Source: a virus
Virus record (IMG/VR): IMGVR_UViG_3300042691_026441
Span: 1 to 44,474 of that record
Length of the DNA stretch: 44,474 nucleotides
Reading direction: 5' to 3' (one strand)
This document shows, one piece after another, positions 974 through 44,166 of the stretch. Within the stretch, counting starts at the first letter, position 1. Every line of letters starts with the position of its first letter. Both the position numbers and the translations under genes were made by a program. The notes below the pieces were generated by a model. It searched no databases and was not told where the DNA came from. It worked only from the letters and a program-made list of their open reading frames with translations.

Positions 974-1009
974 TTGACAGCATGGAAAGCCGATGGTAAT
1001 CTCATGGAA
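974..1009 (+). promoter_or_regulatory. Promoter P1 with three ATGG repeats every 11 bp
   Basis: TTGACA at 974-979 is followed after 17 bp by TAATCT at 997-1002. ATGG occurs at 982, 993 and 1004, exactly 11 bp apart, covering spacer and -10. The same arrangement occurs at 36821-36856 (P2), in the same register to the -35 box, and the two share TGGTAA, one differing base, then CTCATGGAA. It lies in the gap between 963 and 1042 and would drive 1042-3679. Confidence 0.7.
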
Positions 1010-1026
1010 GTGGGGAGTGCCCCCAC
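1010..1026 (+). promoter_or_regulatory. 5' hairpin at the predicted P1 transcript start
   Basis: GTGGGG (1010-1015) pairs with CCCCAC (1021-1026) around a 5-nt loop. It begins 8 nt after the -10 box, so it would be the first thing in the transcript. P2 has a different-sequence hairpin at the identical offset. The ribosome binding site AAGGAG follows 2 nt later. Confidence 0.5.
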
Positions 1027-22363: not shown

Positions 22364-22383
22364 CCCCGAGCAGGAGGCTCACC
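22361..22383 (+). repeat. 23-nt leader repeat, copy 2 (copy 1 at 15092-15114)
   Basis: Identical to copy 1, including the stop codon, GAGC (22368-22371), AGGAG loop and GCTC (22377-22380). Confidence 0.85.
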
Positions 22384-24630: not shown

Positions 24631-24641
24631 GGAGATTCCCA

Positions 24642-31100: not shown

Positions 31101-34100
31101 GCGGGCGTGAGCTGCTGGACAAGAAGGCAATCAAAGCGGACGACCAGATTTATTTCGAGGACACCGGGATCGATTTTCTCTTCATCGACGAAGCCCAGGC
31201 GTTCAAGAACCTGCCGGTTCAATCGGCCCTGAACGTGAAGGGGATTGCGCGCAGCGACACCGGACGCGCGGCGGACATGATGATGAAGATCCGCCACATC
31301 GGCAAGCTCCAGAAGGGCCGTGGCGTCGTGCCGGCGACGGGCACGCCGATTTCAAACACCATCGGCGAAACCTTTGTGATGATGAAGATGATGGCCGAGG
31401 CCGATCTTCACGCGCGGAACATCGGTGCCTTCGACGCGTGGGTGTCCACGTTCGGGCACATCTCCGATCAGGTCGAGTACACCATCGATCTCCGACAGGC
31501 TCCGACGCAGCGACTGCGCGACTTTGTGAACATCGGCGAGTTGCAAACCCTGTTCCGTGACACGGCGGACGTGGTGTTTGCTGATGACATCGGGCTCAAG
31601 CGGCCAAAGAAGGTCAACTACGTTGAAACGATCGAGATGACGCCCGATCAGGAGGACTACCGCGAGCAGCTCCGGGCTCTGGCCGCCGAAATCCGGGCGC
31701 GAAGGGGTCCGCCCAAGAAGGGTGATCTCCCGATTACGATCGTCGGCCAGCGGGGCGCCGCATCGTCGATCGATATGCGGCTGGTCGATCCGACCGCCGA
31801 CGCCGAATCCGGGTCGAAGATTCCCTATCTGGTGGCGAACATCCGGAAGTATCTCGACGCCCACCCGGGCACAACGCAGATGATTTTTACGGAGGTGCGC
31901 ACGCTCGAATCCCTGAACCCGGCGTTCAATCTGGTGGACGAGATTGTGAACCAGCTTGAAAAGGCTGGCGTGCCCCGGGACAAGATCATCGACTTCTCAA
32001 ACCTGACGAAGACCGAGCGGCGGGATGCCGCGCGACGGCTGAACAACGGGGACGCGTGGATCGGCATCGGGTCTACCAAAACCCTTGGCACGGGCGTGAA
32101 CGCGCAGAAGAACCTGATTGCCTTGCACCATCTCGACGTGACGTACACGCCGGCAGAGATGGAACAGCGGGAAGGCCGCGGGTACCGCCAGGGCAACATG
32201 AACCCCACCGGTGAGATCAACATTCATCGGTATGTGACCACGGGGTCGTTTGACGTGTTCCGATGGGGCATCGTGGACCGGAAGTACCGCTTCATCCAGC
32301 GGTTCATGCGCGGGCAATCCGTCGCCGGCACGATGAGGGAGGAAGACGGCGAGGATCTGACGCCCGAGCAGGTGGCGGCGATGGCCACGGGGGATCCGAA
32401 GCAGCTTGAGCTGCTGAACGTTGCGTATGAGGTCGAGAAGCTGGAAACCCAGCGCCGGCGTGCCGCGATGGACGCGGCCCGGGTTCGAGATTCCATCGGC
32501 TCGCTCGAAAAGACCATCACGCATCTTGAAAGCCAGTTGGCCGCCACGGAAGCCGAGCGCGTTGAGCTGGCCGAGTTCACCGCCAAGCCGTTCGAGGTCA
32601 AGATCGGCTCGACGCTCGCGACGACTTCCGAGCAGGTGTACGCCGCCGTCAACGCCGCGTTCCCGCTCGCCAACTACACCGACACCGGCAAAGAGATCGG
32701 TTCGATGCACGGGCTCCGTGTGCGGCTGGGCTTGGTTGCCAGCGGCGATGTGGTCAACCTGACAATCGACGGCCCGAAGGGGGTCGGATACTCGGTGTCG
32801 CTGCGCACCACGTCGGTGGAGATGAACGACGGCAAGATGGTGAAGACCGTCCATCCGAACATGCAGGCGTCACTTCGAGCCGTCATGGGAACGGCCGCGC
32901 TCGAACGGGCGGTTGAGACGACCAAGGCAACGCTCGAATCCGCACGCGCCGACTTGGCCAAGGCCAAGACCATGGTGTCGTCCGGGTTCAAGCGGGATGC
33001 CGAGCTTGAGGAGAAGCGAGCCCGCCGCGAAGTGCTCCGTAAGGAGGTCGAGGCGAATCAGGCCGCCGACGACGCTCGACGCGCGGAACAGAAGCAGGCC
33101 CGGGATCTGCTGTGGTCGATGGATGATGCCGAGTTCGCAAAGCTCGCCAGCGAGCGCGGTGTCATGCAGGAGAAGACAACCCGCAACGTGGGTCGGCTGT
33201 TGAGGGCGATCGGTCAATCCGAGGTGATCCGCATGTTCGCGGATCAGATCGCCAAAGCCAAGGCGGCGCAGGAGTTCAAGGAGGCTACAGACCCGACCAA
33301 GTTGTCGGCGGGGCTCAACGCCGACGCCGCGATCGCTGCGGCCAAGTTCGCGTTCTATTGGGCGAAGCCCCACGTGCGGCGCGCCGCCGCGATGGCGTAC
33401 GCCGCCGGCAAAGCGCTTGTGAACATCCCTCGGGCGGCAAAGCTGATGATGCTGAGCCTGACCGGGAAGATCCGCAACGAGGACGGCTCGGTCGCGGTCG
33501 ATCTGGCGGGGATGTACGGCGACGCCGCCGGCAAGGCTCTGCCCCGCATCACCGCTATGGACGCGGCATCGAGCGAGGCCGGCGTTCGGTACGTCAGCGC
33601 CCCGGACGCGGCGGTGTTGCAGGGCGACGTGTACGCCGACTCGGTGATCGGGGATCACACACCCGAAGACGTGGAGCTTGCGGGCGCGGTTCTGACCGAG
33701 GACAACCTTCGCTCGGTGCGCAAGCAGCACGAGGCCATGGCGGCGGAATACACCGCGCGGGGAGAGCAGGAAGCCGCCGACGCCGCCGCCGAATCCGCCA
33801 AGGCGGTCTATTCGCTTGTGGGCGACGGTCGGTATTTCGAGACCGAGGAGGAATATCAGGCCGCGCTCAGGCATCCCGGTGTGGTGGACATCATCAACCG
33901 GTTCATCGACTCATTCTCGCCCGTGATGGACGAGCTCTACAAGAAGGCCAGCGGGATCCCGCTTGACGACGATCTTCCCTCGCGCGGGGAGCAGACCGGT
34001 TGCCGGATCAACCTGAAAGCCAACCGCCCCGAGCAGACCGCCAAGCCGATCGGGATGGCCAACGACCAGACGCGTCCGTTCGTGCGGAAAAGCTCGTTCA

Positions 34101-35860
34101 ACCGCCGGGCGACGGGTGCGGCGAGCCTTGGCTACGACATCGATCTCCGCGAGATCATCAAGAACAGCGTGGTGAAGCAGTTGGAGATCGCCACTCAGCG
34201 AGAGTGGTACGCCACCATGGAGGCGGCGGGCATCGCCAAGATCGCCCCGATGGGCTCGGAGGTGATGCTGCGCGGGGTAGTGGTTCCGCCCGGGTCCGCC
34301 GTGGACATTCAGTACCGGACGCTGGTGATCTCTAAGAACGGGGAGGCCAAAGTCATCCCCCAGAACAACCGGCTGTACCTGCATCCGGCGATTGCCGGCG
34401 AAGTGAAGGCGGCGCTCCGGAAACAGATCGTGGACGTGCGGGGCGCAAAGAGCGTGCTCGTGGGGGCGATCGAGGCGGCGAACATGGCCGCGCTGGTCGG
34501 GCCGGCGGACGCGACGACGCACGCAATGAACGTCGCCACCGTGCTGTTCACGAGGCCCGGCGTTGGACGAGGGCCGATGGGGCGGACGTTGCACATGCTC
34601 GGGGGCGTGCCGGCGATTCTGGCGGCGCTCGATCAACTTCTCGCCAAGGGCATGAAACACTGGTTCGGCAACCGCGAAACCAAACAGCGACACGCGTATC
34701 TCGTGTCGATCGGTGCCATGCGGGTGGAAGCGCACGACAACCCCAGCGAGCGCGAGGGCCTGTGGGCGAAGGTGCTCGACAAGGTGCTCAACATGGGTTG
34801 GTTGCAGCGTCGGCTGGACCCGGTAGCCCGGCTGGTGCTCGACGACGCGTTCACCGAGTTGGTGAAGAAAGGCTTGGTGATCGACTCTGAGACCAACCGA
34901 CGCGAGTTTATCAACCAAGTGGGCCAGTACAACAAGCGGTTGCAATGGATGCTCCCCCGCATCCTGCGAGAGACGGGCGTTGCCCCGTTCATCACCGCCG
35001 GCAAGACGATGCGGAATCTGGCGATCCGGAATCTGGCGATGGCCCCGGGCGCAACCGCCACGAGCCAACTCGCCGCCGCAAAGCTCCGGTTGTCGATCGT
35101 GTCCAGGTGGGTGGGCACCCTTGGCAGCATCGCCATGCTCAACGTGATGCTTGCCGCGCCCGACGACGACCGGCCCGTCTGGGAGAAGGCGGTTGGCCCC
35201 AAGGGCGCAGCACCGGGAACGGTCATGCTCTACACCGATGAGCGCGGTCGCCCCGTCACGATCGATCTTTTGGAGTTGGTGGGCTACCGGCGTGCCGCGC
35301 GAACCGTGGGGCTCGATCAGGCGATCAAGAGCTACATGTTCGGTCTTTCGCCCGGCCAGACCTTTGACCGGGCCGCGAATCAGGCGATCACGTCGGCGAT
35401 CGTGCATCCGATCTCCGGGCCCCCGATCCGCGCCGGGCTCGCCATGCTGTACGGCATCGACCCGTCCGGGTACCCGGTTGCCGCCAAGGCCCGGCCCGGG
35501 GAATCGCAGGTGTGGGAAAATCTCAAGGCAGCGCTCGTGCAGTCGAACCAAGCTACCAAGATCATCTTCTCGGAGGGCGGGAGCGACGTGTCCGTGTTCG
35601 AGGCCGCCGCACAGAACCTTGTGCCCAGGCTTGTGCCAAAGACCGGGCGGACGGAACGGCAAACCGACACTCTTGCCAAGCGACTCACCGCGTTTCAGGT
35701 CAACGAGTTTGCGGACGATCTGGCGAGCAGGCTCAAGAAACTCCCGCGTGAGGATCGGGTGGCGGCGCTGAACAAGGCGCTCGAAGGCATGGACCTCATG
35801 CACGCTGCTAAAGTACGGCGCATCGTGATGTTCAAGAAGCGTGTGATGGCCGCGGAATAG
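25127..35860 (+). CDS. Giant polyvalent protein: N6-adenine methyltransferase + SNF2-like helicase + virion-type segments
   Basis: A 3,577-residue protein; ATG 25127 overlaps the previous stop. Residues 1-450 are virion-like, with DPFEA at 5 and 35. Residues 450-532 are Pro/Ala/Gln-rich. Small beta (SH3/KOW-like) segments lie near 532 and 726. About 850 starts LSAGLNTDA, a helical module also found at 2726. Residues 947-1062 are low-complexity and overprinted. The methyltransferase spans about 1150-1350: motif I EPSMGIGNFFG near 1179, motif IV VIGNVPF near 1242. The helicase has GTGKT near 1851, FIDEAQAF near 2019, ATGTPISNT near 2070, QREGRGYRQGN near 2347. Coiled coil 2435-2720, then a long C-terminal region. 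It resembles DarB of phage P1 and other polyvalent proteins, injected to block restriction. Being next to ejection genes fits injection. Confidence 0.9.
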   Translation: MNPNDPFEASVTRGSLAGVGMPIEATPPPVAAPVDPFEAAEMRWVAARPAVAGDLKRQREELMRPSGSLKNADGTYGAPSMPAPPPWWGLTPKTGLTATKVTKEDVDSKMYGYTADDIGAPAERDSAGVIRRKYNPITGAWAEWGDKGGYGWHEDNAIGYRPDLDPREKVGFFGELTDVGKAFSATSLGSAIALRGGQPTPEEAAYQAFNAPPQTGPGKVAAIVRDSAAFATDFVLTGSAQRALSTPARAAARSFAEKVLGAGGQLGKVGRLTEAAAEMGARGIAVAPTGIPAGIKDAVEIAAVSDAPFMESLYKGMGGQFIERFSEFSGGVVARGAGMLVPEKLRLLKAAIAQKWMSKSPGVRTISNFAEQVAKVGGWDGILGEIGEEYVGGVMKDLAQIEDFRGFSNEEIMQMAAAFAIPGGVVKTAQGGMAATDAVRAFMQRRAQAQGADAAVTGEPVLQTPPGTDAPLQAAPVEQQAPEVVAEVSPVPAAEVMPHPTATQTAPVPAQQAAPVQADPIAEQAAPAKSKHRPGDRVIVNTEDGPVQATVRFDPKAAPNAVTVKTDAGEIITASLDDVEGWASTKIDEAEAVGVAENMQADAATGEQVVASGGNVMKVDTSTGDATPVADVEIRAAKEKKAKNKRPYQTVDVPITPERAAVIRQVKEAVGNREKIQAVLGDKTDAYFKRMAGGEQSANAVIRVMGWDNEAGAPAPTAQSAPATFKEGDRVQKIVNGKTLTGTVQGVDSVNGDLTVKVDQILKAGGVPIGRIEYWPNREVQSADASSKDVGGKASTSDSAPSPTTANQPTAVPPAAPKRSRFLKNLTPEEMASFDDAKARFTKAAGGSTLSAGLNTDALTAAVQMGYLVAKSGIRSFQKWAAVMHEELGDVGKTYLREAWAAVRANRDMRTYAKSGEMVDSETVADMADEELDRLIIQGRGELENDDASQPNDAVADAGASGAGVRERGPTEQAEPRESGDDAGGRSGGNVGGAGASGDDARTGAGAGDGNADRRDREAGKSRRGRRAAAGDERDGGGDARETPAQEQRQHDAKALDTADHVIENPDTLAMGSPKAKYAANMKALETYRRIQAEGRTHATPEEKRILSQWVGWGMFPQVFNRDSAWSVEAEALAQALSRDEMYEARNSTKNAHYTSAPMVQAMYDMVRRLGFEAGRVLEPSMGIGNFFGLMPADMAAKSKRVGIELEPITGGMAKLIYPASVVRVAGFQDVRLPPDFFDLVIGNVPFSSTTIYDPEYKSLTLNTHDYFIVRSLDKVRQGGLVALITSTGTLDKAGAQGSRAREAMANRASLVAAFRLPGGAFEANAGTQVVTDLLIFQKHTWVNGARKENPHAQAFQEVVTVPDPDGGEPIPVNEYFKAHPEHIIGRLDRTGTMYRAGSKNVSVTGDWREMLAEQVKKLPAGIAAKEAQPDVDVEGAMVEDRAGKEGGLSVDDGKLFRRVNGAMVRVQADKPTIDRVKALLTVRDAARELVQAEARDADVAVLDDLRQKLNRAYDRATSKHGKLRSRPMLRAIADDPDAMFVASLETDTMEKAAIFTKRTIRGTKIPESVGSAVDAMVVSLNEKGSVDIPFMVGLTKTTAAKVEEELRASGQAFEDPSEGWQSRERYLSGNVRAKLVQAEAAAAIDERYMRNVEALKAVQPPDKTADQIDVQLGSAWVPPDTYAEFYAGALGGSPDHVMVSFKPSTGSFLFQFTPRGERLARSQTAKLLSTDRVEFAKIAEAGMNRQTIKVFDKMADGSSVLNTIATGEAAGKVQELREKFTDWVWNDDTRRQRLTRIYNDQFNSVAPPSADGSNLTLPGMSPEVTLRDHQKNAVRRIINERRAGLFHEVGTGKTYTMIAAAMEVRRLGIAKKPTITCLLSTAPDFVRDIYHLYPGARLLNVAAATDADSRRRLIAQAATGDYDLILMTHEQIGGITCSPETEVEYIQDQIEEAEAAIEQARQADRAAGLSKSSDSRFVKQLAKRLDQLRERGRELLDKKAIKADDQIYFEDTGIDFLFIDEAQAFKNLPVQSALNVKGIARSDTGRAADMMMKIRHIGKLQKGRGVVPATGTPISNTIGETFVMMKMMAEADLHARNIGAFDAWVSTFGHISDQVEYTIDLRQAPTQRLRDFVNIGELQTLFRDTADVVFADDIGLKRPKKVNYVETIEMTPDQEDYREQLRALAAEIRARRGPPKKGDLPITIVGQRGAASSIDMRLVDPTADAESGSKIPYLVANIRKYLDAHPGTTQMIFTEVRTLESLNPAFNLVDEIVNQLEKAGVPRDKIIDFSNLTKTERRDAARRLNNGDAWIGIGSTKTLGTGVNAQKNLIALHHLDVTYTPAEMEQREGRGYRQGNMNPTGEINIHRYVTTGSFDVFRWGIVDRKYRFIQRFMRGQSVAGTMREEDGEDLTPEQVAAMATGDPKQLELLNVAYEVEKLETQRRRAAMDAARVRDSIGSLEKTITHLESQLAATEAERVELAEFTAKPFEVKIGSTLATTSEQVYAAVNAAFPLANYTDTGKEIGSMHGLRVRLGLVASGDVVNLTIDGPKGVGYSVSLRTTSVEMNDGKMVKTVHPNMQASLRAVMGTAALERAVETTKATLESARADLAKAKTMVSSGFKRDAELEEKRARREVLRKEVEANQAADDARRAEQKQARDLLWSMDDAEFAKLASERGVMQEKTTRNVGRLLRAIGQSEVIRMFADQIAKAKAAQEFKEATDPTKLSAGLNADAAIAAAKFAFYWAKPHVRRAAAMAYAAGKALVNIPRAAKLMMLSLTGKIRNEDGSVAVDLAGMYGDAAGKALPRITAMDAASSEAGVRYVSAPDAAVLQGDVYADSVIGDHTPEDVELAGAVLTEDNLRSVRKQHEAMAAEYTARGEQEAADAAAESAKAVYSLVGDGRYFETEEEYQAALRHPGVVDIINRFIDSFSPVMDELYKKASGIPLDDDLPSRGEQTGCRINLKANRPEQTAKPIGMANDQTRPFVRKSSFNRRATGAASLGYDIDLREIIKNSVVKQLEIATQREWYATMEAAGIAKIAPMGSEVMLRGVVVPPGSAVDIQYRTLVISKNGEAKVIPQNNRLYLHPAIAGEVKAALRKQIVDVRGAKSVLVGAIEAANMAALVGPADATTHAMNVATVLFTRPGVGRGPMGRTLHMLGGVPAILAALDQLLAKGMKHWFGNRETKQRHAYLVSIGAMRVEAHDNPSEREGLWAKVLDKVLNMGWLQRRLDPVARLVLDDAFTELVKKGLVIDSETNRREFINQVGQYNKRLQWMLPRILRETGVAPFITAGKTMRNLAIRNLAMAPGATATSQLAAAKLRLSIVSRWVGTLGSIAMLNVMLAAPDDDRPVWEKAVGPKGAAPGTVMLYTDERGRPVTIDLLELVGYRRAARTVGLDQAIKSYMFGLSPGQTFDRAANQAITSAIVHPISGPPIRAGLAMLYGIDPSGYPVAAKARPGESQVWENLKAALVQSNQATKIIFSEGGSDVSVFEAAAQNLVPRLVPKTGRTERQTDTLAKRLTAFQVNEFADDLASRLKKLPREDRVAALNKALEGMDLMHAAKVRRIVMFKKRVMAAE
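27966..28313 (+). CDS. Overprinted gene inside the giant gene (+1 frame), helical protein
   Basis: A 115-residue frame lying wholly within the giant gene, shifted by +1. GGAG at 27955-27958 stands 7 nt before ATG 27966, an ideal ribosome binding site. The protein reads as a compact helical protein: MTPWQTRALQALEFASEG, then LGDEAAVMWAELVHQ, then TPEQAQELVTAMLIDA, then a polar tail. By my hand count about 87% of its third codon positions are G or C, as in the other genes here, whereas the giant frame over the same bases has about 47% and encodes a monotonous Gly, Ala, Asp, Arg stretch. So the selected frame here is the short one. It could be a structural or regulatory partner of the giant protein; no family is recognised. 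Confidence 0.7.
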   Translation: MQANPMTPWQTRALQALEFASEGRQSRQSLVNQAMTLGDEAAVMWAELVHQGTTPEQAQELVTAMLIDATEKRANPDADGGQQQEMNGTVGEMLAKLPPKSSDSTTPRRSTPPTM

Positions 35861-35875
35861 CGCAAGGAGGCGCAT

Positions 35876-36256
35876 GTGCCGGACATGGATCAGGGTCAGA
35901 TTGAGGCGTGGTCGCGGGCGGGCGGGCTGCTGGTCGTGAGTGTGATCGTCTTCCCGATCGTGCTTTATTGGATTGCGCAACTGCAAAACCGGTTCACCGA
36001 AGCCCTGAACGCGGTGAACAAGGCGAACGCGGACATGATCGAGCGACAGAGCGCCGAGCACGCCGAAGAGCGGCGTCTGATGCACGAGGACCGCCGCGAG
36101 ATGGCCCAAGTTGTGGCGGAGAACACGAAAGCCGTGACCCGCGCTACTGTTGCGATCGAACACCTGCTCACTGTGAGCGGGATCGGAGCGGCAAATCCAT
36201 CGGAGCCAAGCAATGAACGAGAGCAACGAACAACCTGTAAACCAAGCCCTCACTGA
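35876..36256 (+). CDS. Single-pass membrane protein, holin-like (BhlA/UviB-like layout)
   Basis: A 126-residue protein starting at GTG 35876 behind AAGGAGG, 5 nt spacing. One membrane segment lies at residues 15-34 (GGLLVVSVIVFPIVLYWIA), then a long charged coiled coil (NKANADMIERQSAEHAEERRLM and so on). This layout matches small holin-like proteins of the BhlA/UviB kind, or an inner-membrane spanin. Its place just before a strong terminator, after the virion genes, fits lysis. It lies in the same frame as the giant gene, after that gene's UAG. Confidence 0.6.
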   Translation: MPDMDQGQIEAWSRAGGLLVVSVIVFPIVLYWIAQLQNRFTEALNAVNKANADMIERQSAEHAEERRLMHEDRREMAQVVAENTKAVTRATVAIEHLLTVSGIGAANPSEPSNEREQRTTCKPSPH

Positions 36257-36737
36257 AACCGACAACGCGGTGGTGCACACCGTCAATCCGGGGCGGGTTG
36301 TGATGGTCGTTCACCCGGCGCTGGAACGCCCGCGCCCGGGGATCGTCGTCCAGGTCGGTTGGGGCGTAGATTCGCAAGTCGGCGAACTGGTCGAGTTCGC
36401 AATGGTTGCCGTGCAAGCGCTTTGCACCGACGCACTGGTCGCAAGTGCTGGCGCGTCGGGTACCGTGGTGAATATCGAGGTGCCCATCTACGACATGGAC
36501 AAGCACTCGCTTCCCCGCGACGACATCAAAATCTACGGGTATCTTCCGTACCGCGCTTCGCCGCCGGCGACGACCGAATCGAACCCCCAAACCCAGCTTC
36601 TGATTGAGCAGGTCAAAGAACTTCAGGACCAGGCCGGGCGGCTGTACGACGCGATTCAATCGCTCGCGACCCGGCTGTCCGCGGCGGAGAAGCTGCTTTC
36701 GGAGTCTCAGACCAAGCCGGGACCGACCGGCGAGTAA
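36213..36737 (+). CDS. Hypothetical protein, last gene of the late unit
   Basis: A 174-residue protein with GGAG about 7 nt before ATG 36213, overlapping the previous gene by 44 nt. It has beta strands in the first two thirds (RVVMVVHPALERPRPGIVVQVGWG; GTVVNIEVPIYDMD) and a C-terminal coiled coil (LLIEQVKELQDQAGRLYDAIQSLATRLSAAEKLLSES). The coil would make it oligomeric. I do not recognise it; an accessory lysis protein or a host-takeover protein are both possible. Confidence 0.6.
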   Translation: MNESNEQPVNQALTETDNAVVHTVNPGRVVMVVHPALERPRPGIVVQVGWGVDSQVGELVEFAMVAVQALCTDALVASAGASGTVVNIEVPIYDMDKHSLPRDDIKIYGYLPYRASPPATTESNPQTQLLIEQVKELQDQAGRLYDAIQSLATRLSAAEKLLSESQTKPGPTGE

Positions 36738-36753
36738 TCACCATGGCGAGGCT

Positions 36754-36811
36754 CCCGACCGGTAACGGTCGGGTGATGGACCCGGCGGGCGCCCCTCCCG
36801 CCGGGTTTTTT
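36754..36811 (+). terminator. Double hairpin terminator ending the late unit
   Basis: First hairpin: CCCGACCG (36754-36761), GTAA loop, CGGTCGGG (36766-36773), an 8-bp stem with a GNRA tetraloop. Second: CCCGGCGGG (36781-36789) with CCCGCCGGG (36797-36805), then six T (36806-36811). The second is a textbook intrinsic terminator and shares a 14-nt tail with the one at 3703. Promoter P2 follows 10 nt later. Confidence 0.92.
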
Positions 36812-36820
36812 CATGCGCCC

Positions 36821-36856
36821 TTGACGCGATGGTAATCGCATGGTAAACTCATGGAA
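36821..36856 (+). promoter_or_regulatory. Promoter P2 with three ATGG repeats every 11 bp
   Basis: TTGACG (36821-36826), 17 bp, TAAACT (36844-36849). ATGG at 36829, 36840 and 36851, 11 bp apart, in the same register relative to the -35 box as at P1. It would drive the recombination/replication operon that starts at 36894. Confidence 0.75.
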
Positions 36857-36874
36857 ACCGATCGTGTGATCGGT
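36857..36874 (+). promoter_or_regulatory. Inverted repeat at the P2 transcript start
   Basis: ACCGATC, GTGT, GATCGGT: a perfect 7-4-7 dyad. It begins 8 nt after the -10 box, the same offset as the P1 hairpin at 1010. It can be an operator or a 5' stem-loop protecting the mRNA. Confidence 0.6.
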
Positions 36875-36893
36875 CAAACACAAGGGGCATCAC

Positions 36894-37829
36894 ATGGCGT
36901 TGACAGCGAAACAGTTGGAAGACCGCAAGGCGTGGCTTGGCGCGTCGGACATGGCGGCGGTGCTGGGGCTCGATCCCTACCGCACGCCCTACGAGGTGTG
37001 GGCCGATAAAACGGGGCGGGCGCCCGCGCGGGAAGGGGGCGAGCGGGCAAAGTACGGCACGATGATCGAGCCCGTGTTGCGGGCGTGGGCGTCGGCGAAG
37101 CTCGAACGCCCCGTGGTGGCGTCCACGAGCACGTTCCGCCACATGTCGGTTCCGTGCATGGCGGTCAACCCCGACGGGTTTGTCGGCAAGTGCCAGCGCG
37201 GCAATCCGTTGGTGGAGTGCAAACGCACGTCGCTCGCGCAGGAGTGGGGCGAGCCGGGCACGGATCAGGTTCCCTATCGGACCATCGTTCAGGTACAAAC
37301 CCAGATGGCCTGCACCGCTTCGCCGCACGTTCACGTCGTGGCGGACATTGCCGATCGGTTCCATGAAGGTCCGGAAATGTACATCGTGCATCGCGACAAC
37401 GAGATGATCGCGATGATTGAGGAGCGGGCGGTCGAGTTCTGGAATCTCATCGCGAACGACACGCCGCCGGAAGACGGGCCGGTCCCGCCGGTGGAGTTCA
37501 TCGCCAAGGTGCGCCGCGACACCGTGGATCCCGCCCAGGTTGATGACGCGATCATCGCCGAGTATCAAGCCGCCAACGAGCGCCGCAAGAAAGCGGAGAA
37601 GGAGGAGGAGGAGATCAAGGCCCGCCTCCTGCTCAAGCTCGGCACGTCCGAGATCGGCGAGTCCGAGATGCACATCGTGAAGTACGTGATGGAGAACGCC
37701 GGATCGAATACCGACATGGCCGCGATTCGGCAGAACCACCCCGAGCAGTTTGAGGCGTGGCAGCAGCTCATCGATCGGTATCAGGTCAAGCGGACCCGTC
37801 GCGTTCTCCGCATCAAGGCCCGCAAATGA
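36894..37829 (+). CDS. YqaJ-type viral recombinase exonuclease
   Basis: A 311-residue protein, first gene after P2, with AAGGGG 6 nt before the ATG. It begins with KAWLGASDMAAVLGLDPYRTPYEVWADKTG, the hallmark of the YqaJ exonuclease family, and shows the PD-(D/E)xK core: Glu59 (GTMIEP), Asp94 (NPDGF), Glu108-Lys110 (ECK), then VQVQTQM. Such enzymes chew one strand from DNA ends, giving 3' overhangs for the annealase RecT, encoded three genes downstream. A coiled basic/acidic section (KKAEKEEEEIKARLLLKL) follows the nuclease domain and may contact the partner. The length is normal. Confidence 0.9.
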   Translation: MALTAKQLEDRKAWLGASDMAAVLGLDPYRTPYEVWADKTGRAPAREGGERAKYGTMIEPVLRAWASAKLERPVVASTSTFRHMSVPCMAVNPDGFVGKCQRGNPLVECKRTSLAQEWGEPGTDQVPYRTIVQVQTQMACTASPHVHVVADIADRFHEGPEMYIVHRDNEMIAMIEERAVEFWNLIANDTPPEDGPVPPVEFIAKVRRDTVDPAQVDDAIIAEYQAANERRKKAEKEEEEIKARLLLKLGTSEIGESEMHIVKYVMENAGSNTDMAAIRQNHPEQFEAWQQLIDRYQVKRTRRVLRIKARK

Positions 37830-38086
37830 GCGACAAGCCCCACACCATCCCGTTCCCGTGGATCGTTGCCGGCGAGCGGTGCGCGCTGTGCAACAGGCCG
37901 GTGTGGTTTGTTCCGGTCCGGGTCAAGGGCGGCGCGAAGGTCAACTACCCGACCGCCCCCTTGGCCATGACCATGTTCCGCATCGACACCGCAGGCCGCG
38001 GGCTTCGCACGCAATCGGGATTCCCGCTGCACCAACAGGACGGTGGCGCAGCGCCCGATCTGGCGTGCGATCAGGAGCCGTTCTGA
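37826..38086 (+). CDS. Small hypothetical protein with one CxxC
   Basis: An 86-residue protein starting at ATG 37826 in an ATGA overlap with the exonuclease stop. It has a single CALC pair near residue 20 followed by strands (RPVWFVPVRVKGG), and its stop overlaps the next start. One CxxC alone may pair with another protein or with a second chain. Its place between exonuclease and RecT suggests a role in recombination or early takeover; function unknown. Confidence 0.65.
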   Translation: MSDKPHTIPFPWIVAGERCALCNRPVWFVPVRVKGGAKVNYPTAPLAMTMFRIDTAGRGLRTQSGFPLHQQDGGAAPDLACDQEPF

Positions 38087-38487
38087 TGACCGCCTTTGGA
38101 CCCAACTCGCTCTTCGGGCAGTCGAACCCGCCGGCACCGTCGGCGGGCGAGACCCCGCACCCGGGGAACCACGGTCACGAGTTCCTTGGGCCCGACCGGT
38201 GCAAGTCGTGCGGAGCTCCGATCCTGTGGGGCACGAACCTCGCCACCGGCAAGTCCATCCCGCTGGACGCGCACCCGATCGCCACGGCGTTCGTCGTCAC
38301 CGAGGCCGGGGAGAAACAGCCGTTCTGTGAAATCCGTCGAGCCTTCCGCAGTCACTTCGTCTCATGTCCGAACCGAGATCAGCACCGAACCAAGGGGAAT
38401 CACCATGACCAATCAGGCATTGAAAGACCAACCATCAACTCCGCAGCCGGCCAAGCAGCCTCAGCCGAACCCAACCCGCCGCGTTGA
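38086..38487 (+). CDS. Zinc-ribbon-like early protein
   Basis: A 133-residue protein. CKSCGAPILWGTNLATGKSIPLDA at about residues 43-66 and a later SHFVSCPN give the CxxC...C pattern of a small phage protein type (C-x-x-C, tryptophan, GKxxPLD, then SHxxxCP) seen next to recombination genes. The function is unknown; DNA or single-strand binding is possible. The last 25 residues overlap the RecT gene in another frame (83 nt) and are Asn, Gln, Ala-rich. Confidence 0.65.
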   Translation: MTAFGPNSLFGQSNPPAPSAGETPHPGNHGHEFLGPDRCKSCGAPILWGTNLATGKSIPLDAHPIATAFVVTEAGEKQPFCEIRRAFRSHFVSCPNRDQHRTKGNHHDQSGIERPTINSAAGQAASAEPNPPR

Positions 38488-39478
38488 CCCGGAGCGGGCG
38501 ATGACGCCCAACGAGCTCAACGAGGCGGTGCTGGCGCTCAACAAGATCTTCTCTAACCCGGGCCGCATGGAGCGTCTGAAAGACGTGGAGACCGAGTTCG
38601 TCTCCGCCGAGCGCGCGGTGCGTGTGGCGATGGCCGCGATCTCGCGGAATCCTCAGCTCGTCCAGGCTGCGCGGATGAGCCCCCTGAGCTTCTTCGAGGC
38701 CGTCATGGGGGGTATCGAGATGGGCCTTGAGCCGGGCGGGCGGGCGGGCTTGGCGTATCTGGTCCCGCGGCGGAACAAGAAGACCGGGCGCACCGAGATC
38801 ACGTTGCTGGTGGGATACCGCGGGCTCATGTCGATCGTCCGCCGTTCCACCGAGATCGGCGCGATCGAGGCGGACGTGGTGTACCCCACCGACATCTTCT
38901 CGTTCGAGCGTGGATCGGCCCGCGGGCTGCGACACGTGCCCAACTTGGACATTCCGCGGGACGCGCCGGGCGATTTCCGGTTGGCGTACGCCGCCGCGTA
39001 CACCCGGGCCGGTCAACTCATCGACGCGGCGATCATGACCCGGGAGCAGATTGACCAGATCCGCAAGCGGTCGGAGGCCGGGGAATCGGCGTTCTCGCCG
39101 TGGAACAGCAAGTTCGGCGGGGATCAGCTTGAGATGTGCAAGAAGACCGCGCTCCGCCGGCTGTGCAAAATGCTCCCCCTTGAGCCCGTTATCGCCACCC
39201 AGGTTGGGACCGCGGACAAGTTCGACCCGATTGGGGAGACGTTCGCCACCGCCGCCGCACCCGCTGCGGAGGCCCGCCAGACCCCCGCAAGCCGAACGGA
39301 GGCGGTCAAGGAGGCGATTGCACGCTCGGGGGGTGCTCAGACCCCACCAGCCCCCGCCCCCGAGCCTGAGCCCGAGGAAGAGCCTCAGGTCAACCCAGAG
39401 GACGAGGAGCTTGTTCGGGAGCTGGACGATCTGATCGCGCAAGGAAACACCCGCACCGCTTCTCAGGGGAAACCATGA
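38405..39478 (+). CDS. recT: RecT-family single-strand annealing protein
   Basis: A 357-residue protein. AAGGGG is 7 nt before ATG 38405; the open frame upstream to 38096 runs over the zinc-ribbon gene. Residues of about 91-150 (SPLSFFEAVMGGIEMGLEPG, then AYLVP, then VGYRGLMSIVRRS, then VVYPTD) are the classic RecT core. It binds single-stranded DNA and anneals it to complementary strands, working with the exonuclease at 36894. The last 100 residues are a Pro, Glu, Ala-rich acidic tail (PAPEPEPEEEPQV), longer than in most RecT proteins, that could contact SSB or other partners. Confidence 0.92.
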   Translation: MTNQALKDQPSTPQPAKQPQPNPTRRVDPERAMTPNELNEAVLALNKIFSNPGRMERLKDVETEFVSAERAVRVAMAAISRNPQLVQAARMSPLSFFEAVMGGIEMGLEPGGRAGLAYLVPRRNKKTGRTEITLLVGYRGLMSIVRRSTEIGAIEADVVYPTDIFSFERGSARGLRHVPNLDIPRDAPGDFRLAYAAAYTRAGQLIDAAIMTREQIDQIRKRSEAGESAFSPWNSKFGGDQLEMCKKTALRRLCKMLPLEPVIATQVGTADKFDPIGETFATAAAPAAEARQTPASRTEAVKEAIARSGGAQTPPAPAPEPEPEEEPQVNPEDEELVRELDDLIAQGNTRTASQGKP

Positions 39479-39837
39479 ACACCCGGCTGAACATCACCGT
39501 GCACCCTGAACACTCCACGGTGTACATCGTGACGGCGAGCAACGAGGTGATCGAGGTGCAGGTGCGCGAGCCCCACAAGGTTGCGATGGCGTTCACCGCC
39601 GACCGCGACACGATCATCATCCGATCGGCGCTTGTCGAATCACGTGAACAAGTTGTGGAAATGGCCTGTCGGTTGCGCGCGGTTGCGAACAACCGACCGC
39701 CCCCCCCTCCCCCCTCCCCTCCCCGACCGCACACCAAATACGCCGCGCAACCGACAGCAACCGACAGGGGCGTCGGTTCCAACCGACAGCCACAACACAC
39801 CACCAGCTTTGCGAGAAACCCCCGTAGAAATGCGTGA
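39475..39837 (+). CDS. Small protein with poly-proline tail, gene carries origin-like repeats
   Basis: A 120-residue protein starting as ATGA at the RecT stop. Residues 1-70 are beta-alpha (NITVHPEHSTVYIVTASNEVIEVQV) and plausible as a fold. Residues 73-84 are nearly all proline, encoded by a tract of C with single T, and the remainder is polar and seems shaped by the DNA repeats (CAACCGACAG) that it contains. The tail may be there because the DNA has another function. Function of the protein unknown. Confidence 0.6.
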   Translation: MNTRLNITVHPEHSTVYIVTASNEVIEVQVREPHKVAMAFTADRDTIIIRSALVESREQVVEMACRLRAVANNRPPPPPPSPPRPHTKYAAQPTATDRGVGSNRQPQHTTSFARNPRRNA

Positions 39838-39927
39838 ATCTCGCGATTCAAACAGAGTTATCAACAACCGACAGGACACCATTACCACCAACAGAGATTT
39901 ATCTATCTCTGAAATAAGGAGCAGGAC
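39666..39927. other. Candidate replication origin: iterons, DnaA-like box, AT-rich stretch
   Basis: CAACCGACAG occurs exactly at 39748, 39758, 39780 and 39865 and in reverse (CTGTCGGTTG) at 39666-39675. The first two abut in tandem, and the third lies 22 bp further, about two helical turns. A 7-2-7 dyad GTCGGTT/AACCGAC spans 39772-39787. TTATCAACA at 39858-39866 is one base from the DnaA box TTATCCACA. From 39838 to 39927 the DNA is visibly A+T-rich and includes a CAGAGAT/ATCTCTG dyad (39892-39911). Confidence 0.6.
39700..39724 (-). other. G-quadruplex motif on the minus strand
   Basis: The plus strand reads C8, T, C6, T, C4, T, C4. The minus strand is therefore four G runs of 4, 4, 6 and 8 separated by single A, a pattern that favours a very stable four-stranded G structure. 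It sits inside the iteron cluster. Confidence 0.7.
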
Positions 39928-40611
39928 ATGGCAAAGGCAGCGAAGGATCTCAAGCGTCAGATGACCGACGACGAAAAGATGATCTTGGTGTACGTCGCCA
40001 AGCGAGCTCGAAAGGGCTCGAACATCAAGGCCGTCAACGTGCTCATGGCGGGGCTGGGAAAGCCCTCCATCGAGAGCATCACGCACCTGATCCACACCTT
40101 TGGGTACATCACCCACCCGAACGGGCAGGATGGAGAGGTGAATGAGCACCGGGTGATCCTGACCGTTCAGGGCAAGGCCGCCGTCGAGAAGCTGGTCGCC
40201 GAGAAGTTCTCCTTCTCCGTCGATCCCGACGTGATGCGGAAGGTCGAGGAGGCCGAGAGCTCCAAGTCGGACGGCGCGACCTTCGACGACATCACCCTCG
40301 CAAACCCCGTTGACGACGAGGGCGAGCCCGAGAAGGAAGACCCCACCGCCGGCGGGCTCATCGTCGTGAGCAAGAAGGCAAAGCCGGTCAAGGAGCAAAG
40401 GCCGCTCAGGACCGACCGCGCCGCCATGGAGGCTCGCGCCGCCGCCGAAGAGGCCGGGGAAATCGAGCACGACGAAGAAAACCCCGCGGACCCGGACCCG
40501 GACCCCGAGCCCGAGCCGGAGCCTGAACCCGAGGTGGAGAAGCCAGCCCGCACCACGACCCAGCGCCGTGGGCGTGGGCGTCCCCCCGGCCCTTCGCGCA
40601 AGTCCCGGTGA
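39928..40611 (+). CDS. Candidate origin-binding protein: helical DNA-binding N-terminus, acidic stretch, AT-hook
   Basis: A 227-residue protein with AAGGAG 6 nt before the ATG. Residues 1-95 are winged-helix-like by appearance (DDEKMILVYVAKRARKG, then KAVNVLMAGLGKPSIESITHLIHTFGYI). A repeated Asp-Pro/Glu-Pro stretch lies near 188-204, and residues 213-222 contain RGRGRPPG, an AT-hook that binds A+T-rich DNA in the minor groove. It starts right after the A+T-rich region of the candidate origin, so a role as initiator or as repressor of its own operon is plausible. No known family is identified. Confidence 0.7.
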   Translation: MAKAAKDLKRQMTDDEKMILVYVAKRARKGSNIKAVNVLMAGLGKPSIESITHLIHTFGYITHPNGQDGEVNEHRVILTVQGKAAVEKLVAEKFSFSVDPDVMRKVEEAESSKSDGATFDDITLANPVDDEGEPEKEDPTAGGLIVVSKKAKPVKEQRPLRTDRAAMEARAAAEEAGEIEHDEENPADPDPDPEPEPEPEPEVEKPARTTTQRRGRGRPPGPSRKSR

Positions 40612-40654
40612 TGAACCACACCGCCGACGCGTGCGAGAGCGCCCGCCGGCGATT

Positions 40655-40924
40655 ATGCCAAAGACACACCCAACCAACGAAGTTCAGACGCACGTGTTTG
40701 GCGGGAGGCTGTACACCGCCACCGACCACGAGCGCAAGACGTACGCAACCCCCGCCCAGGCGGCGTCGCTCATCGGCGTCTCTCGCCGCACGATCACGCT
40801 TTGGTTTGACCGGGGGATTCTCACGCCCGTCCAGTGGGGGCGGTACCAGCTCATCGAGCGCGTGAAGGTTCGCGAGCTGGCGAAGCAGTACCGGGGCAAA
40901 CCCCGCGCGCGTTCCAGCCGTTGA
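40655..40924 (+). CDS. Small helix-turn-helix protein (excisionase/MerR-like)
   Basis: An 89-residue protein. Residues 31-55 (ATPAQAASLIGVSRRTITLWFDRG) form a helix-turn-helix of the MerR/excisionase kind, followed by ILTPVQWGRYQLIERVKV, which would be the wing. It probably binds specific DNA. The start at ATG 40655 has no good ribosome binding site; the frame is open upstream to 40568 over the previous gene. No integrase is present, so regulation, for example of P1 or P2, is likelier than excision. Confidence 0.75.
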   Translation: MPKTHPTNEVQTHVFGGRLYTATDHERKTYATPAQAASLIGVSRRTITLWFDRGILTPVQWGRYQLIERVKVRELAKQYRGKPRARSSR

Positions 40925-40975
40925 CACACACAACCGGTGCGCGTTGCACCATCACCACCAGCAAAGGAGTCCCGC

Positions 40976-41500
40976 ATGGCGACGAAGAAGAAGAACGCGA
41001 AGAAGAAGCCCACCAAGAAGCCCAAGCCGAAGAAGCCCAAGGTCGAGGGCTTGACGAAGGGCAACACCACCCGGCTTTTCGGCTGGGTCGAAACTCACGA
41101 CGAGACAGTCCAGCGGATCGAGAAGTACAAAGCGGAGGTTCAGCAGCTCAAGGGCGCCAAGGCCGAGCTTATCCAAGAGTTGCTCGCCGCCCCGCGCAAA
41201 GCCGCGGACGAGCACAAAGACACCATCGACGTGGATCCGCTTCTCAAAAAGCAGGCGCATCTGGACAAGATCAGCGCCCAGCTTGAGGACGCCAACACGA
41301 CGCTCACGTCGGCCAAGGAAGAGAAGAAGGCGGCGATCGCCGAGTTGGTCGGTTACATCCGCACTATCCGCGACGGCGGCGACTTGTTCGAGTACACCGA
41401 GAAGATCAAGCAGGAGCGGAAGGCCGCCGAGACGAGCAAGCCCGCCGCTGGCAGCGACCCCACGGGTGCCGACCCCGACGACGACGACATCCCCCTGTGA
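40976..41500 (+). CDS. Lys-rich coiled-coil protein with an SSB-like acidic tail
   Basis: A 174-residue protein with AAAGGAG before ATG 40976. Residues 2-30 are almost all Lys/Pro (TKKKNAKKKPTKKPKPKK), then a coiled coil (ETVQRIEKYKAEVQQLKGAKAELIQELL), and the last nine residues are DPDDDDIPL. Bacterial SSB ends in DDDIPF, the tail that recruits repair and replication proteins; here the final Phe is Leu. A protein that binds DNA by its basic end and offers an SSB-type tail could recruit host partners or act as a stand-in for SSB. That function is inference. Confidence 0.7.
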   Translation: MATKKKNAKKKPTKKPKPKKPKVEGLTKGNTTRLFGWVETHDETVQRIEKYKAEVQQLKGAKAELIQELLAAPRKAADEHKDTIDVDPLLKKQAHLDKISAQLEDANTTLTSAKEEKKAAIAELVGYIRTIRDGGDLFEYTEKIKQERKAAETSKPAAGSDPTGADPDDDDIPL

Positions 41501-41504
41501 ACCC

Positions 41505-41628
41505 CCGGACTTCCGGCAGCGCCCTGTCCGGTTTGCCGCAAGGCAATGCCTTCTGAATCTCCCCATCCGATCAGATGGGCAGAACGGGGCGATGATCGGC
41601 CCAGCCGCTCGGAGACGAGACGCTGGGC
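41505..41628 (+). ncRNA. Structured leader RNA with a possible pseudoknot
   Basis: Four stems in a row: CCGGAC/GTCCGG (41505-41510 with 41526-41531), AAGGC/GCCTT (41540-41552), CCCATC/GATGGG (41562-41579) and GCCCAGC/GCTGGGC (41599-41605 with 41622-41628), the last with an inner CTCG/CGAG stem and a GAGA tetraloop. The loop of the third (CGATCA, 41568-41573) is complementary to TGATCG at 41593-41598, so a pseudoknot or an alternative fold can form. The ribosome binding site AGGAG of the next gene follows at 41633. Confidence 0.6.
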
Positions 41629-41642
41629 TTTCAGGAGAACCC

Positions 41643-42041
41643 ATGACCAACCCAATCAACTTTCGATTCCGATACATGCCCGAGCAAAAGGAGATCCGGC
41701 TGAAAAAAGAGACGATCGAGCGCGTGAAAGCGAATCGCCCGACGTTTCAGAGGGCGATGGGCCTACTCCGGCAGGAGCTGGCACACTTGGGCGTTGAGCA
41801 GGAGGTGATCGTCGAAGCCGGGCACAGGCTTGAGCAGATCCGCGCCGACGGCTTCCCGCGCGGATCGTCCACCCCCGAGCACGGCGACGTGCGGATCTCG
41901 TTCCGAGACAAGCACGGGCGAGATTTGCAGTTCATGCAGACGGGCTGGAAGTCGTTCGATTACAACCTGTACATGATCGCGATGCTGCTGAAATACCTGC
42001 GCGACGCCGACGTGTACGCGTGCGACGCGACGGGCGCTTAG
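41643..42041 (+). CDS. N-terminal part of a J-domain protein, ends at UAG
   Basis: A 132-residue frame from ATG 41643 (AGGAG 5 nt upstream of it) to TAG 42039-42041. The sequence (FQRAMGLLRQELAHLGVEQEVIVEA, then GDVRISFRDKHGRDLQFMQTGWKS, then NLYMIAMLLKYLRDADVY) matches the first part of phage J-domain proteins I know, whose second part follows directly without a break. Here that second part continues in the same frame after the TAG. So this is the front of a split or read-through gene. The intact protein would be 213 residues. Confidence 0.8.
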   Translation: MTNPINFRFRYMPEQKEIRLKKETIERVKANRPTFQRAMGLLRQELAHLGVEQEVIVEAGHRLEQIRADGFPRGSSTPEHGDVRISFRDKHGRDLQFMQTGWKSFDYNLYMIAMLLKYLRDADVYACDATGA

Positions 42042-42284
42042 TACCGCGGGTATGCCCAGCTTCCCCCGGGAGGCGGAGCACCTTTAGCGGCGGCGGAGTG
42101 GCCGAACGTCGAGGCGGCGGAGAAGTGGTTGCGCGAGTTCGCCGGCAACATGACCAGCGAACCGATCGATCGCGTCTTCCGCGCCGCCGCCATGAAGGCC
42201 CACCCGGACACCGGGGGCAACGCCGACATCATGGGCAAGATCAACCGTTGCCGCGAGTACATCGAGAAGAAAGGACACCAATGA
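42042..42284 (+). CDS. J-domain C-terminal part, in frame after the UAG
   Basis: The frame after the TAG at 42039 stays open for 80 codons to TGA 42282-42284, which overlaps the next start (ATGA). It reads YRGYAQLPPGGGAP, then EAAEKWLREFAGNM, then a J-domain helix and HPD motif (RVFRAAAMKAHPDTGGNADIM), with His187-Pro188-Asp189 in the numbering of the joined protein. The HPD loop stimulates the ATPase of DnaK-type chaperones. No ribosome binding site exists near any start inside this stretch (first ATG at 42150), so it would need read-through or suppression. Confidence 0.7.
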   Translation, partial: YRGYAQLPPGGGAPLAAAEWPNVEAAEKWLREFAGNMTSEPIDRVFRAAAMKAHPDTGGNADIMGKINRCREYIEKKGHQ

Positions 42285-43150
42285 GCACCAACTTGGACCG
42301 TAAACGCAACCGCCTTCACGTTCTCGTGCATTGCACGGAGCAATACGCGGGAGAACCTACGCCCGGCATCGTGCGGCGTTCTGCGATCCGGACGGAAGCG
42401 TTTGATACCAAAGACATGGGCGGGGTGATGAGTGTCGAGGCCCCGAAGTATTTGGCCGCCGCCGAGGCGTGCAGGGCCGCCGGGCTTCCCCAGCCCGGGG
42501 TGCATCTGCGGTACCCCACCGGGCTTGCCAACGGGCGAACCCCGGCGCTGGAGTCGATGGTTGAGCGACTAACGGGGCTGGCGGCCAATCGACGCCACGA
42601 TTTGTTCCGATCGTTTTTCCGCCCACCCCACCAGATCAGAGAGGTGTCCGCGTACATCGGTGGCGTGGAGCCGAACGCCGGCGAACGTCTATGGGCCAAT
42701 CGCGGGTTGGCCGCTTTCGACAGTTGCATTGATAAGACAGCGGAGTACCTTGCCGCAATCTGGCCGGGGATGTCCTTCGTCGCGGTGGACGTGTCCGGTG
42801 TGGCTCAAGAAGGATCGTGGGCCGAGTACGCGATTCTCAGGATGCAGAAGCTGGGGATGCCGATCGCCGTCGAGCCGATCCGCGGCGGAATCTGGGCGAG
42901 CCGGCGGCCTGTGCCGGTGTTCATGGAGGGCCGGGTGTTTATGAACCATTCAACGCGACAAAGCGACCGTGCGTTGTTCAACAACGTTCTGGACGCGCCC
43001 CGCATCATCATCCAAGACGACGGCACGATGAGCGAAGCGCAGATGGAGTCGCTGTGGTTGCTTTTCCCGGCGATCGAGTTCGTGCTTCCGCCCGAGCGGT
43101 TCACGTCGAGCCTTCTGGCCGATCTGGCGAAGGCGGGGGGTGGGAAGTGA
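42281..43150 (+). CDS. Hypothetical protein, early operon
   Basis: A 289-residue protein starting as ATGA at the previous stop, AAAGG 7 nt upstream. It has a mixed alpha/beta composition: RLHVLVHCTEQYAGE, then MSFVAVDVSGVAQEGSWAEYAIL, then PVPVFMEGRVFMNHS, then APRIIIQDDGTMSEAQ. The first segment and the strand-loop-helix near the middle suggest a Rossmann-like fold, perhaps a nucleotide or sugar enzyme, but no catalytic motif identifies it. Confidence 0.7.
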   Translation: MSTNLDRKRNRLHVLVHCTEQYAGEPTPGIVRRSAIRTEAFDTKDMGGVMSVEAPKYLAAAEACRAAGLPQPGVHLRYPTGLANGRTPALESMVERLTGLAANRRHDLFRSFFRPPHQIREVSAYIGGVEPNAGERLWANRGLAAFDSCIDKTAEYLAAIWPGMSFVAVDVSGVAQEGSWAEYAILRMQKLGMPIAVEPIRGGIWASRRPVPVFMEGRVFMNHSTRQSDRALFNNVLDAPRIIIQDDGTMSEAQMESLWLLFPAIEFVLPPERFTSSLLADLAKAGGGK

Positions 43151-43482
43151 GCAAGCACACACCAGAGCCGTGGATCAGCGGCGACGAGCATTCAGACGAT
43201 CGCCCAACATTGTGGGATGACGAAGGGTGCTGCGTTGCAGAGTTCAACCGGTTCATGGGCGCGAAGCGAGCAATCGCAAACCGTGATCGCGCCATGGCCT
43301 GCGTGAACGCGTGCAAAGGGATCGACCCGGAAGCGGTGCCTTATCTACTGGCCGCGTGCAAGGCGGCCCTTGCCGATCGCTTCGGGTCTGATGATCCGTG
43401 CGTTGATCTTGACCCAATCACCAATCAACTCCGCGACGCCATCGCGAAGGCCGAAGGAGAGAACACCAATGCGAAGGCATGA
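43147..43482 (+). CDS. Small conserved-type phage protein (HTPEPW start)
   Basis: A 111-residue protein from GTG 43147, overlapping the previous stop as GTGA. It begins SKHTPEPWISG, a start pattern shared by many small phage proteins; further on NRDRAMACVNACKGID and NQLRDAIAKAEG are also typical of that group. Their function is unknown. Three Cys residues in the middle are not arranged as a clear metal site. Confidence 0.75.
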   Translation: MSKHTPEPWISGDEHSDDRPTLWDDEGCCVAEFNRFMGAKRAIANRDRAMACVNACKGIDPEAVPYLLAACKAALADRFGSDDPCVDLDPITNQLRDAIAKAEGENTNAKA

Positions 43483-43966
43483 AACAAGCCTCACGTCGGC
43501 GTGTCTGCGGTATCTGGGCGTGCTCCCCGGGGTCCACGTGTGGCGGCAGAACACCGGCGTGGCGTGGATGAAGGGGCGCGGCGGGAAACCCCGGCCCGTG
43601 TCGTTCTCGTTCCCCGGGGCGCCCGACATCATGGGCTGGATTGAGCTCCCGTCGCGCAAGGAAGGCGTGCCGCACGCGGTCTTCATGGCGGTCGAGACGA
43701 AACAGCCCAAGGAAACCGACCTGACCGGGAAGGTGTACCGCGCCGGCGAGCTGAACGACAACCAGATCGAGTTCGGCAACAAGCTGACCAAGGCCGGCGG
43801 CATCTACATCGTCTGCACGAGCGTCGAGGAGCTGGACACGAAGATCAAGCTTGTGCGGGCGTTGTCCGCGTCCATGGTCCCGCAAACGCTTCCCGTCGAT
43901 TCGCATCTGGACCAAGCGAACATGAAGCGGGAAGCGAAGTGGAAGAAGAAATGGGGTGTGAAGTGA
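43469..43966 (+). CDS. VRR-NUC-type nuclease
   Basis: A 165-residue protein with AAGGAG 9 nt before ATG 43469. Glu5, WRQNTG at 25-30, PGAPDIMG with Asp53, VETK with Glu76 and Lys78, and Gln99 in NDNQIEF form the PD-(D/E)xK active site of the VRR-NUC family. Such small phage proteins cut branched DNA or act as structure-specific nucleases. It ends with a basic tail (KREAKWKKKWGVK) that may bind DNA. It serves the recombination functions encoded in the same operon. Confidence 0.88.
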   Translation: MRRHETSLTSACLRYLGVLPGVHVWRQNTGVAWMKGRGGKPRPVSFSFPGAPDIMGWIELPSRKEGVPHAVFMAVETKQPKETDLTGKVYRAGELNDNQIEFGNKLTKAGGIYIVCTSVEELDTKIKLVRALSASMVPQTLPVDSHLDQANMKREAKWKKKWGVK

Positions 43967-44166
43967 GCAAGAAACTCCGCAATCAATGGTCTGTCGGCAA
44001 GGTCTTTCACGCGAACGCGGGCGAGCTGCACGACGGCATCAGGCTGATGGGTGCCGATGGCAAGCCGTTCAAGCGTGCCGCGTCGCTCGTCATCATTCAA
44101 TCGCGTTACTTCGGCCAGATTTGCAAGGCGTGGCGGGAGTACACGAAGAAGGGGAAGAAGAAGTGA
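43963..44166 (+). CDS. Small basic hypothetical protein
   Basis: A 67-residue protein from GTG 43963, overlapping the nuclease stop as GTGA; a GTG at 43939 is possible but would overlap more. It is basic, ending KKGKKK, and has no recognisable motif. The start context AAGTGAGCAAG is identical to the one at 43145-43155, so the two small genes share their junction sequence. Confidence 0.6.
   Translation: MSKKLRNQWSVGKVFHANAGELHDGIRLMGADGKPFKRAASLVIIQSRYFGQICKAWREYTKKGKKK

Follow-up and report, generated by a model that had tools for sequence, protein, structure and literature searches.

In phage lambda, one regulator acts on two distant phage promoters through the matching operators OL and OR, which are palindromes for a dimer. 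Other regulators use direct repeats. In the excerpts available from the study of Streptomyces BldC, this protein binds head to tail on direct repeats about one turn apart, covers the smeA-sffA promoter from -60 to -10 and occupies AATT-N4-C repeats at 9 bp in the whiI crystal, and response regulators are named as other direct-repeat binders (PMC5859096). RdfS is described, in part of a second article, as placing one monomer per 10 bp (PMC11963761). According to extracts of a third, Apl of phage 186 recognizes direct repeats at 10-11 bp and represses the early promoters pR and pL (PMC7498355).

The DNA analysed here, called the window, is the whole of a 44,474-base phage contig (64% G+C) with genes for terminase, head, RecE and RecT; nearly all of its likely genes lie on the + strand. 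Two predicted promoters, P1 and P2, each carry three phased ATGG units. A frame runs in phase over the joined contig ends (44163-44474 followed by 1-63) and ends by overlapping the gene at 60 at an ATGA, a match that has a one in three chance by phase alone. The joined ends hint at a complete, circularly permuted genome, though the record is classed as linear. If the map is circular, the P2 block would consist of recE, recT, the HTH gene and a VRR-NUC gene, and would run to 963; P1 starts 10 bases past the last stop codon of the block reaching that position. The block opened by P1 holds terminase, head and tail-region genes up to 36737. Between this virion block and P2 stands a strong terminator (Table 1), which has no entry in the list of a simple scanner. 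For the first gene after P1, a start at 1042 is likelier because a single base separates the ATG at 1036 from the Shine-Dalgarno-like AAGGAG. Among 40 window frames compared with PHROGs, none matched an integrase, and an Rfam search of the window gave no match.

Other parts of the window have features of their own. A single frame of 3,580 residues (25118-35860) takes up a quarter of the contig and matches PHROGs for DarB-like antirestriction, DNA methyltransferase and helicase. An identical 23-base leader with a ribosome-binding site is found at 15092-15114 and 22361-22383, directly 5' of the genes at 15116 and 22385, with 0 expected in shuffles. Just 5' of the 39928 gene, at 39660-39880, CAACCGACAG repeats are clustered in both orientations, with five direct copies at 90% or more and several inverted ones; the cluster may be a replication origin or a further control region.

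P1 and P2 are predicted sigma-70-type extended -10 promoters. Their coordinates, their hexamers, the 17-base spacer of each and the three ATGG units spaced 11 bases in the same register agree with the earlier note on this DNA (Table 1). Over the 36 bases compared (974-1009 and 36821-36856) the two sites are identical at 28, and the likeness stops abruptly outside TTGAC...ATGGAA. The spacers had been said to differ outside the units, which is true in the main, except that in both sites each ATGG is followed by AA (once by AG) and the third unit, which itself reads ATGGAA in each, is preceded by CTC. Two features had been overlooked: in both promoters unit 2 also provides the TGn of an extended -10, and a hairpin lies at both predicted starts. 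These starts are inferred to fall at about 1009 and about 36856. In a promoter scan, P2 is the only promoter-like site in 24475-44474; the P1 -10 is under the scanner's threshold and P1 is missing from its list.

Table 1. Features of the P1 and P2 regions and of the genes and proteins discussed (window coordinates).
Feature	Coordinates	Strand	Remarks
P1 -35 hexamer TTGACA	974..979	+	6/6 to consensus
P1 operator (putative)	982..1007	+	ATGG units at 982, 993, 1004
P1 -10 hexamer TAATCT	997..1002	+	TGG before (extended -10); 3/6 to consensus
5'-terminal hairpin, P1 transcript	1010..1026	+	6-pair stem, 5-base loop, -10 kcal/mol; predicted start about 1009
First gene after P1	1042..1878	+	function unknown; no family matched
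Intrinsic terminator	36780..36812	+	10-pair stem then six T; ends 8 bases before P2 -35
P2 -35 hexamer TTGACG	36821..36826	+	5/6 to consensus
P2 operator (putative)	36829..36854	+	ATGG units at 36829, 36840, 36851
P2 -10 hexamer TAAACT	36844..36849	+	TGG before (extended -10); 4/6 to consensus
5'-terminal hairpin, P2 transcript	36857..36874	+	7-pair stem, 4-base loop, -9 kcal/mol; predicted start about 36856
RecE-like exonuclease (YqaJ domain)	36894..37829	+	first gene after P2
RecT-like annealing protein	38405..39478	+	
'AT-hook' protein of the earlier note	39928..40611	+	without support as regulator
Winged-helix protein, MerR/Xis/BldC type	40655..40924	+	89 residues; leading candidate for operator binding

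Judged from the letters, P1 and P2 are a real, non-random regulatory element. A search of both strands of the whole window finds the exact triple ATGG-N7-ATGG-N7-ATGG twice, at P1 and P2 only. It appeared in none of 100 dinucleotide shuffles and, on the + strand of 200 first-order shuffles, at 0.005 per shuffle. With two mismatches allowed, four triples are found against 2.8 expected, so this looser form is not unusual. The + strand carries 198 copies of ATGG, and its four pairs 11 bases apart all fall within P1 and P2. A 7-base matrix derived from all six units gives the four phased pairs 22-25 bits, against 14.5 for the runner-up in the window. ATGG is intact in every one of the six units while the positions between units differ. 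None of 110 comparable promoters in other loci has an in-phase 4-mer triple at spacings of 8-14, in a control set that is biased, its loci coming mostly from motif scans and its sites with ATGG pairs being masked.

Directly 3' of the third unit ATGGAA, each promoter has a perfect inverted repeat, GTGGGG-AGTGC-CCCCAC at P1 and ACCGATC-GTGT-GATCGGT at P2. Both stems begin 36 bases after the first -35 base, 1-2 bases past the predicted start. What the two hairpins share is their structure, the sequences being unrelated, and this points toward RNA. Of all + strand positions, 0.34% begin a stem of 6 or more pairs and 0.09% one of 7 or more. Among 129 promoter-like sites in other loci, a stem of at least 6 pairs occurred at the same offset in 3 and at one of nine offsets in 11, so start-site hairpins are not rare after promoters generally. 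Whole-leader folding z-scores are modest (-1.7). Portions of a study of bacterial mRNA report that 5' structures 1-2 bases from the transcript end hinder RppH and RNase E (PMC3997798). The P1 and P2 hairpins are like the protective 5'-terminal stem-loops described there in lying 1-2 bases from the predicted 5' end, and unlike them in that the P1 and P2 starts are predicted (PMC3997798).

Two proteins had been put forward as regulators, and they fared differently. The 40655 protein falls clearly, by profile and model comparison, into the MerR/Xis/BldC-type winged-helix fold class, an assignment that is clear at the level of the class and not below it. In PHROGs it matches MerR-like (E 7e-8) and excisionase (E 4e-7) families. 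It is under every curated cut-off, with an HTH_17 match below the cut-off, a score of 21.6 where TIGR01764 (NCBIfam excisionase family DNA-binding protein) demands 28.8, and a score of 16 where the BldC family NF033787 demands 77. Against PDB sequences it matches the BldC chains 6ama and 6amk (E 0.007-0.010); the formally best row, 8pjr, is without any significant single stretch. One of five single-sequence models was confident, with pLDDT 81-88 in the winged-helix core. The top Foldseek rows for this model were Pukovnik Xis and BldC (E 0.008-0.009, TM by target 0.71-0.78), with no row at 0.001 or better. VIA-align against Xis/BldC gave Z 7.1 (rmsd 2.6 over 55 residues) and 7.0, and several other MerR proteins tie, as at Z 6.8 and 6.6. 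Arg30, the base-reading arginine of BldC in the excerpts of its study, aligns to a leucine in the 40655 protein (PMC5859096).

The 40655 protein is nevertheless the leading candidate and the predicted binder of the ATGG units, because its class fills direct repeats about one turn apart and acts on promoters. What favors the earlier proposal of this protein is its resemblance to the Xis/BldC class with such binding, a weak one that stays under every curated cut-off; naming it as the regulator is a reasonable guess. The 39928 protein, proposed as an AT-hook regulator, found no backing: no Pfam or PHROGs family matched it, its only two NCBIfam matches are sub-threshold, and its model is unusable (mean pLDDT 47).

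Relatives of the phage are distant, as found in scans from which the records closest to the window may be missing. In IMG/VR, no relatives came up with RecT, portal or the HTH protein as query; the RecE query gave two (26-28% identity) and the TerL query seven (27-41%). Of these nine records G006 alone holds the exact ATGG triple, within a simple repeat, and all remaining triple matches have 1-2 mismatches, a level also met in window shuffles. RecT was matched in one of the nine and the HTH protein in none. Ranked by terminase, the nearest record is G007 (44,278 bases). It has TerL, portal, head and other genes of the virion block in common with the window, at 29-44% identity. Neither RecT nor the HTH protein found a match in it, and its three candidate promoters are all unlike P1 and P2.

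The element was also sought in wider collections. The pattern ATGGNAA-N4-ATGGNAA-N4-ATGG is common in IMG/VR (at least 119 stretches), and the matches listed are mostly coding sequence, unrelated repeats and iteron-like arrays; the repeat by itself is therefore not diagnostic. TTGAC followed by two phased units occurs at 5 viral loci and, in an 84,980-species genome collection, at 21 cellular ones; a third unit is present in none of these 26. The cellular TTGAC-ATGGNAA-ATGGTAA sites are promoter-like, clostridial and other, and compare with about 7 expected on a uniform-base estimate. TTGAC with all three units was found at six IMG/VR loci, where a rough estimate expects about six by chance. 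Four are copies of one stretch and one is an AT-rich stretch, these being judged coding by eye; the sixth (L174, 1927-1960) is intergenic and promoter-like. A blastn comparison of 86 bases around each promoter with 50,697 phage records gave only matches at E of 3 or more. On the strength of these scans, none of the genomes covered uses the exact element as a general type of promoter.

The L174 site combines TTGACG, three ATGG units in the P1/P2 register and TGG before TCTAGT, with a gene starting at 2043. Its record contains one exact site, and 14,454 of the 23,852 bases of that record, when compared with 36 window frames, gave no protein similarity. The site was therefore set aside as a relative of P1 and P2 and counted as chance or convergence.

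ATGG(C/T)AA arrays at an exact 11-base pitch also occur inside genes, in phages of different hosts. Twelve iteron-bearing frames were picked by eye, and three (L029, L072 and L084) were left out as their longest frame looked spurious. The nine that were tested (L014, L024, L026, L027, L035, L055, L070, L071 and L079) are all replication-initiation or DnaD-like helicase-loader proteins. The arrays within initiator genes look like origin iterons with the same word and pitch as P1 and P2. A different recurrent block, in which a pyrimidine-rich stretch is followed by ATGGTAAAA-type units at an 11-base pitch, is present in many prophage records (L016, L017, L018, L025, L036, L050, L065, L069, L093 and others).

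The reading favored here, at a probability of about 0.42 and thus tentatively, joins two promoters, one direct-repeat operator, a cooperative winged-helix protein (most likely the 40655 product) and protective stem-loops. P1 and P2, facing the same direction, would head the two main gene blocks of the phage, P1 the packaging/virion block and P2 the recET/DNA-metabolism block. The operator at both would consist of three direct repeats of ATGG(T/A)AA, 11 bases apart, at about -27, -16 and -5 from the predicted start; at these positions and this pitch, all three would lie on the same helix face, overlapping sites required by RNA polymerase. The small winged-helix protein would occupy all three units in a head-to-tail, cooperative manner. 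Its candidate gene, 40655, would itself lie within the P2 block, and once enough regulator was made both promoters would be shut off, or tuned, together. A stem-loop 1-2 bases past the transcript start should shield each long mRNA from 5'-end-dependent decay. The cooperative regulator on one helix face that the earlier note envisaged fits this geometry, and that interpretation as a whole is partly supported. Several points count against the favored reading: the 40655 protein is below its cut-offs, its structural matches tie with MerR proteins, one of its five models is confident, and it has a leucine where BldC has Arg30; the P1 -10 is poor, the whole-leader z-scores are modest, G007 is without the element, and BldC repeats are spaced 9 bp.

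The shared letters could also be core promoter sequence with no dedicated regulator, unit 2 serving as the extended -10 and units 1 and 3 as spacer and discriminator, kept through a duplicated promoter cassette or through fit to the host polymerase. This is somewhat unlikely. Unit 2 does fall exactly on the TGn position, the likeness is limited to TTGAC...ATGGAA, and the cellular two-unit loci outnumber expectation (21 against about 7), but sigma-70 needs neither unit 1 nor unit 3, and the third unit is absent from all of the two-unit loci, viral and cellular. The intact ATGG in six of six units with differing positions between them, and the lack of such triples in the 110 other promoters, also speak against it. 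That the two sites are unrelated and alike by chance is scarcely credible. Elsewhere in the window, 28/36 identity is attained by six further pairs of 36-mers, all in coding sequence except for one duplicated leader, and the P1 -10 is weak; against this, the shuffles do not reach the exact triple, and the coincidence of the hairpins is independent of the triple.

Binding by some other protein must also be weighed. OmpR/PhoB-type boxes are 7-base repeats with 4-base gaps, and the 7+4 layout at P1 and P2 is like such tandem response-regulator boxes; a host regulator of this type could bind the repeats and let the phage read its host's state. This is unlikely, as a host regulon should show up as further copies of the element, and in the 84,980-species collection, at the level of the scan made, there are two-unit loci and no three-unit ones, though such a scan would overlook a degenerate site. 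Q sites are located within the promoter, and another phage protein, either a Q-type antiterminator loading at both block starts or an unrecognized replication initiator, could act at P1 and P2, both of which head long blocks with a structured initial transcript. The 11-spaced ATGG(C/T)AA arrays in initiator and helicase-loader genes of many unrelated phages (9 of 9 tested) would suit the initiator, but those arrays sit in coding sequence and not in promoters, and the 40 window frames sent to PHROGs matched no antiterminator or replication-initiator family, which makes such a protein quite improbable. The operator shares its word and pitch with the arrays, so an iteron code may have been reused, a replication-machinery protein on both promoters coupling the two transcription blocks to replication; the chances of this are slim.

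If the favored reading, the cooperative winged-helix protein on a direct-repeat operator, is true, an 89-residue protein runs a genome-wide two-block switch through operators inside the promoter core, in a phage without a recognized repressor or integrase. The direct-repeat mode of Apl, Xis and BldC would then extend to co-directional early and late blocks, and P1 and P2 would offer a compact, easily testable pair of regulated promoters with built-in mRNA protection.

The kind of arrangement seen here is known from phage and Streptomyces regulators, and P1/P2 is a variant of it for which no description was found in the open-licence literature beyond Apl, BldC and other known direct-repeat cases. 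Lambda OL/OR are alike in having matching operators at two distant phage promoters; their palindromes are unlike the direct repeats of P1 and P2, both of which point the same way. BldC of Streptomyces is among the top sequence and structure matches of the 40655 protein, but its AATT-N4-C repeats at 9 bp, as given in the excerpts of its study, are unlike ATGGWAA at 11 (PMC5859096). Apl of phage 186, like Cox of phage P2, is a recombination directionality factor that also regulates early promoters. In the extracts concerning 186, direct repeats one helix turn apart overlap phage promoters and a small winged-helix protein fills several units cooperatively, a role for which the likeness here comes by way of the 40655 candidate (PMC7498355). 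The same extracts place seven operators between the convergent pR and pL and five at att (PMC7498355), whereas here three units lie inside the core of each of two co-directional promoters 36 kb apart, in a phage whose 40 frames sent to PHROGs matched no integrase. With three direct repeats at 11 bp overlapping each promoter, P1 and P2 have the layout of Apl/RDF-type operators.
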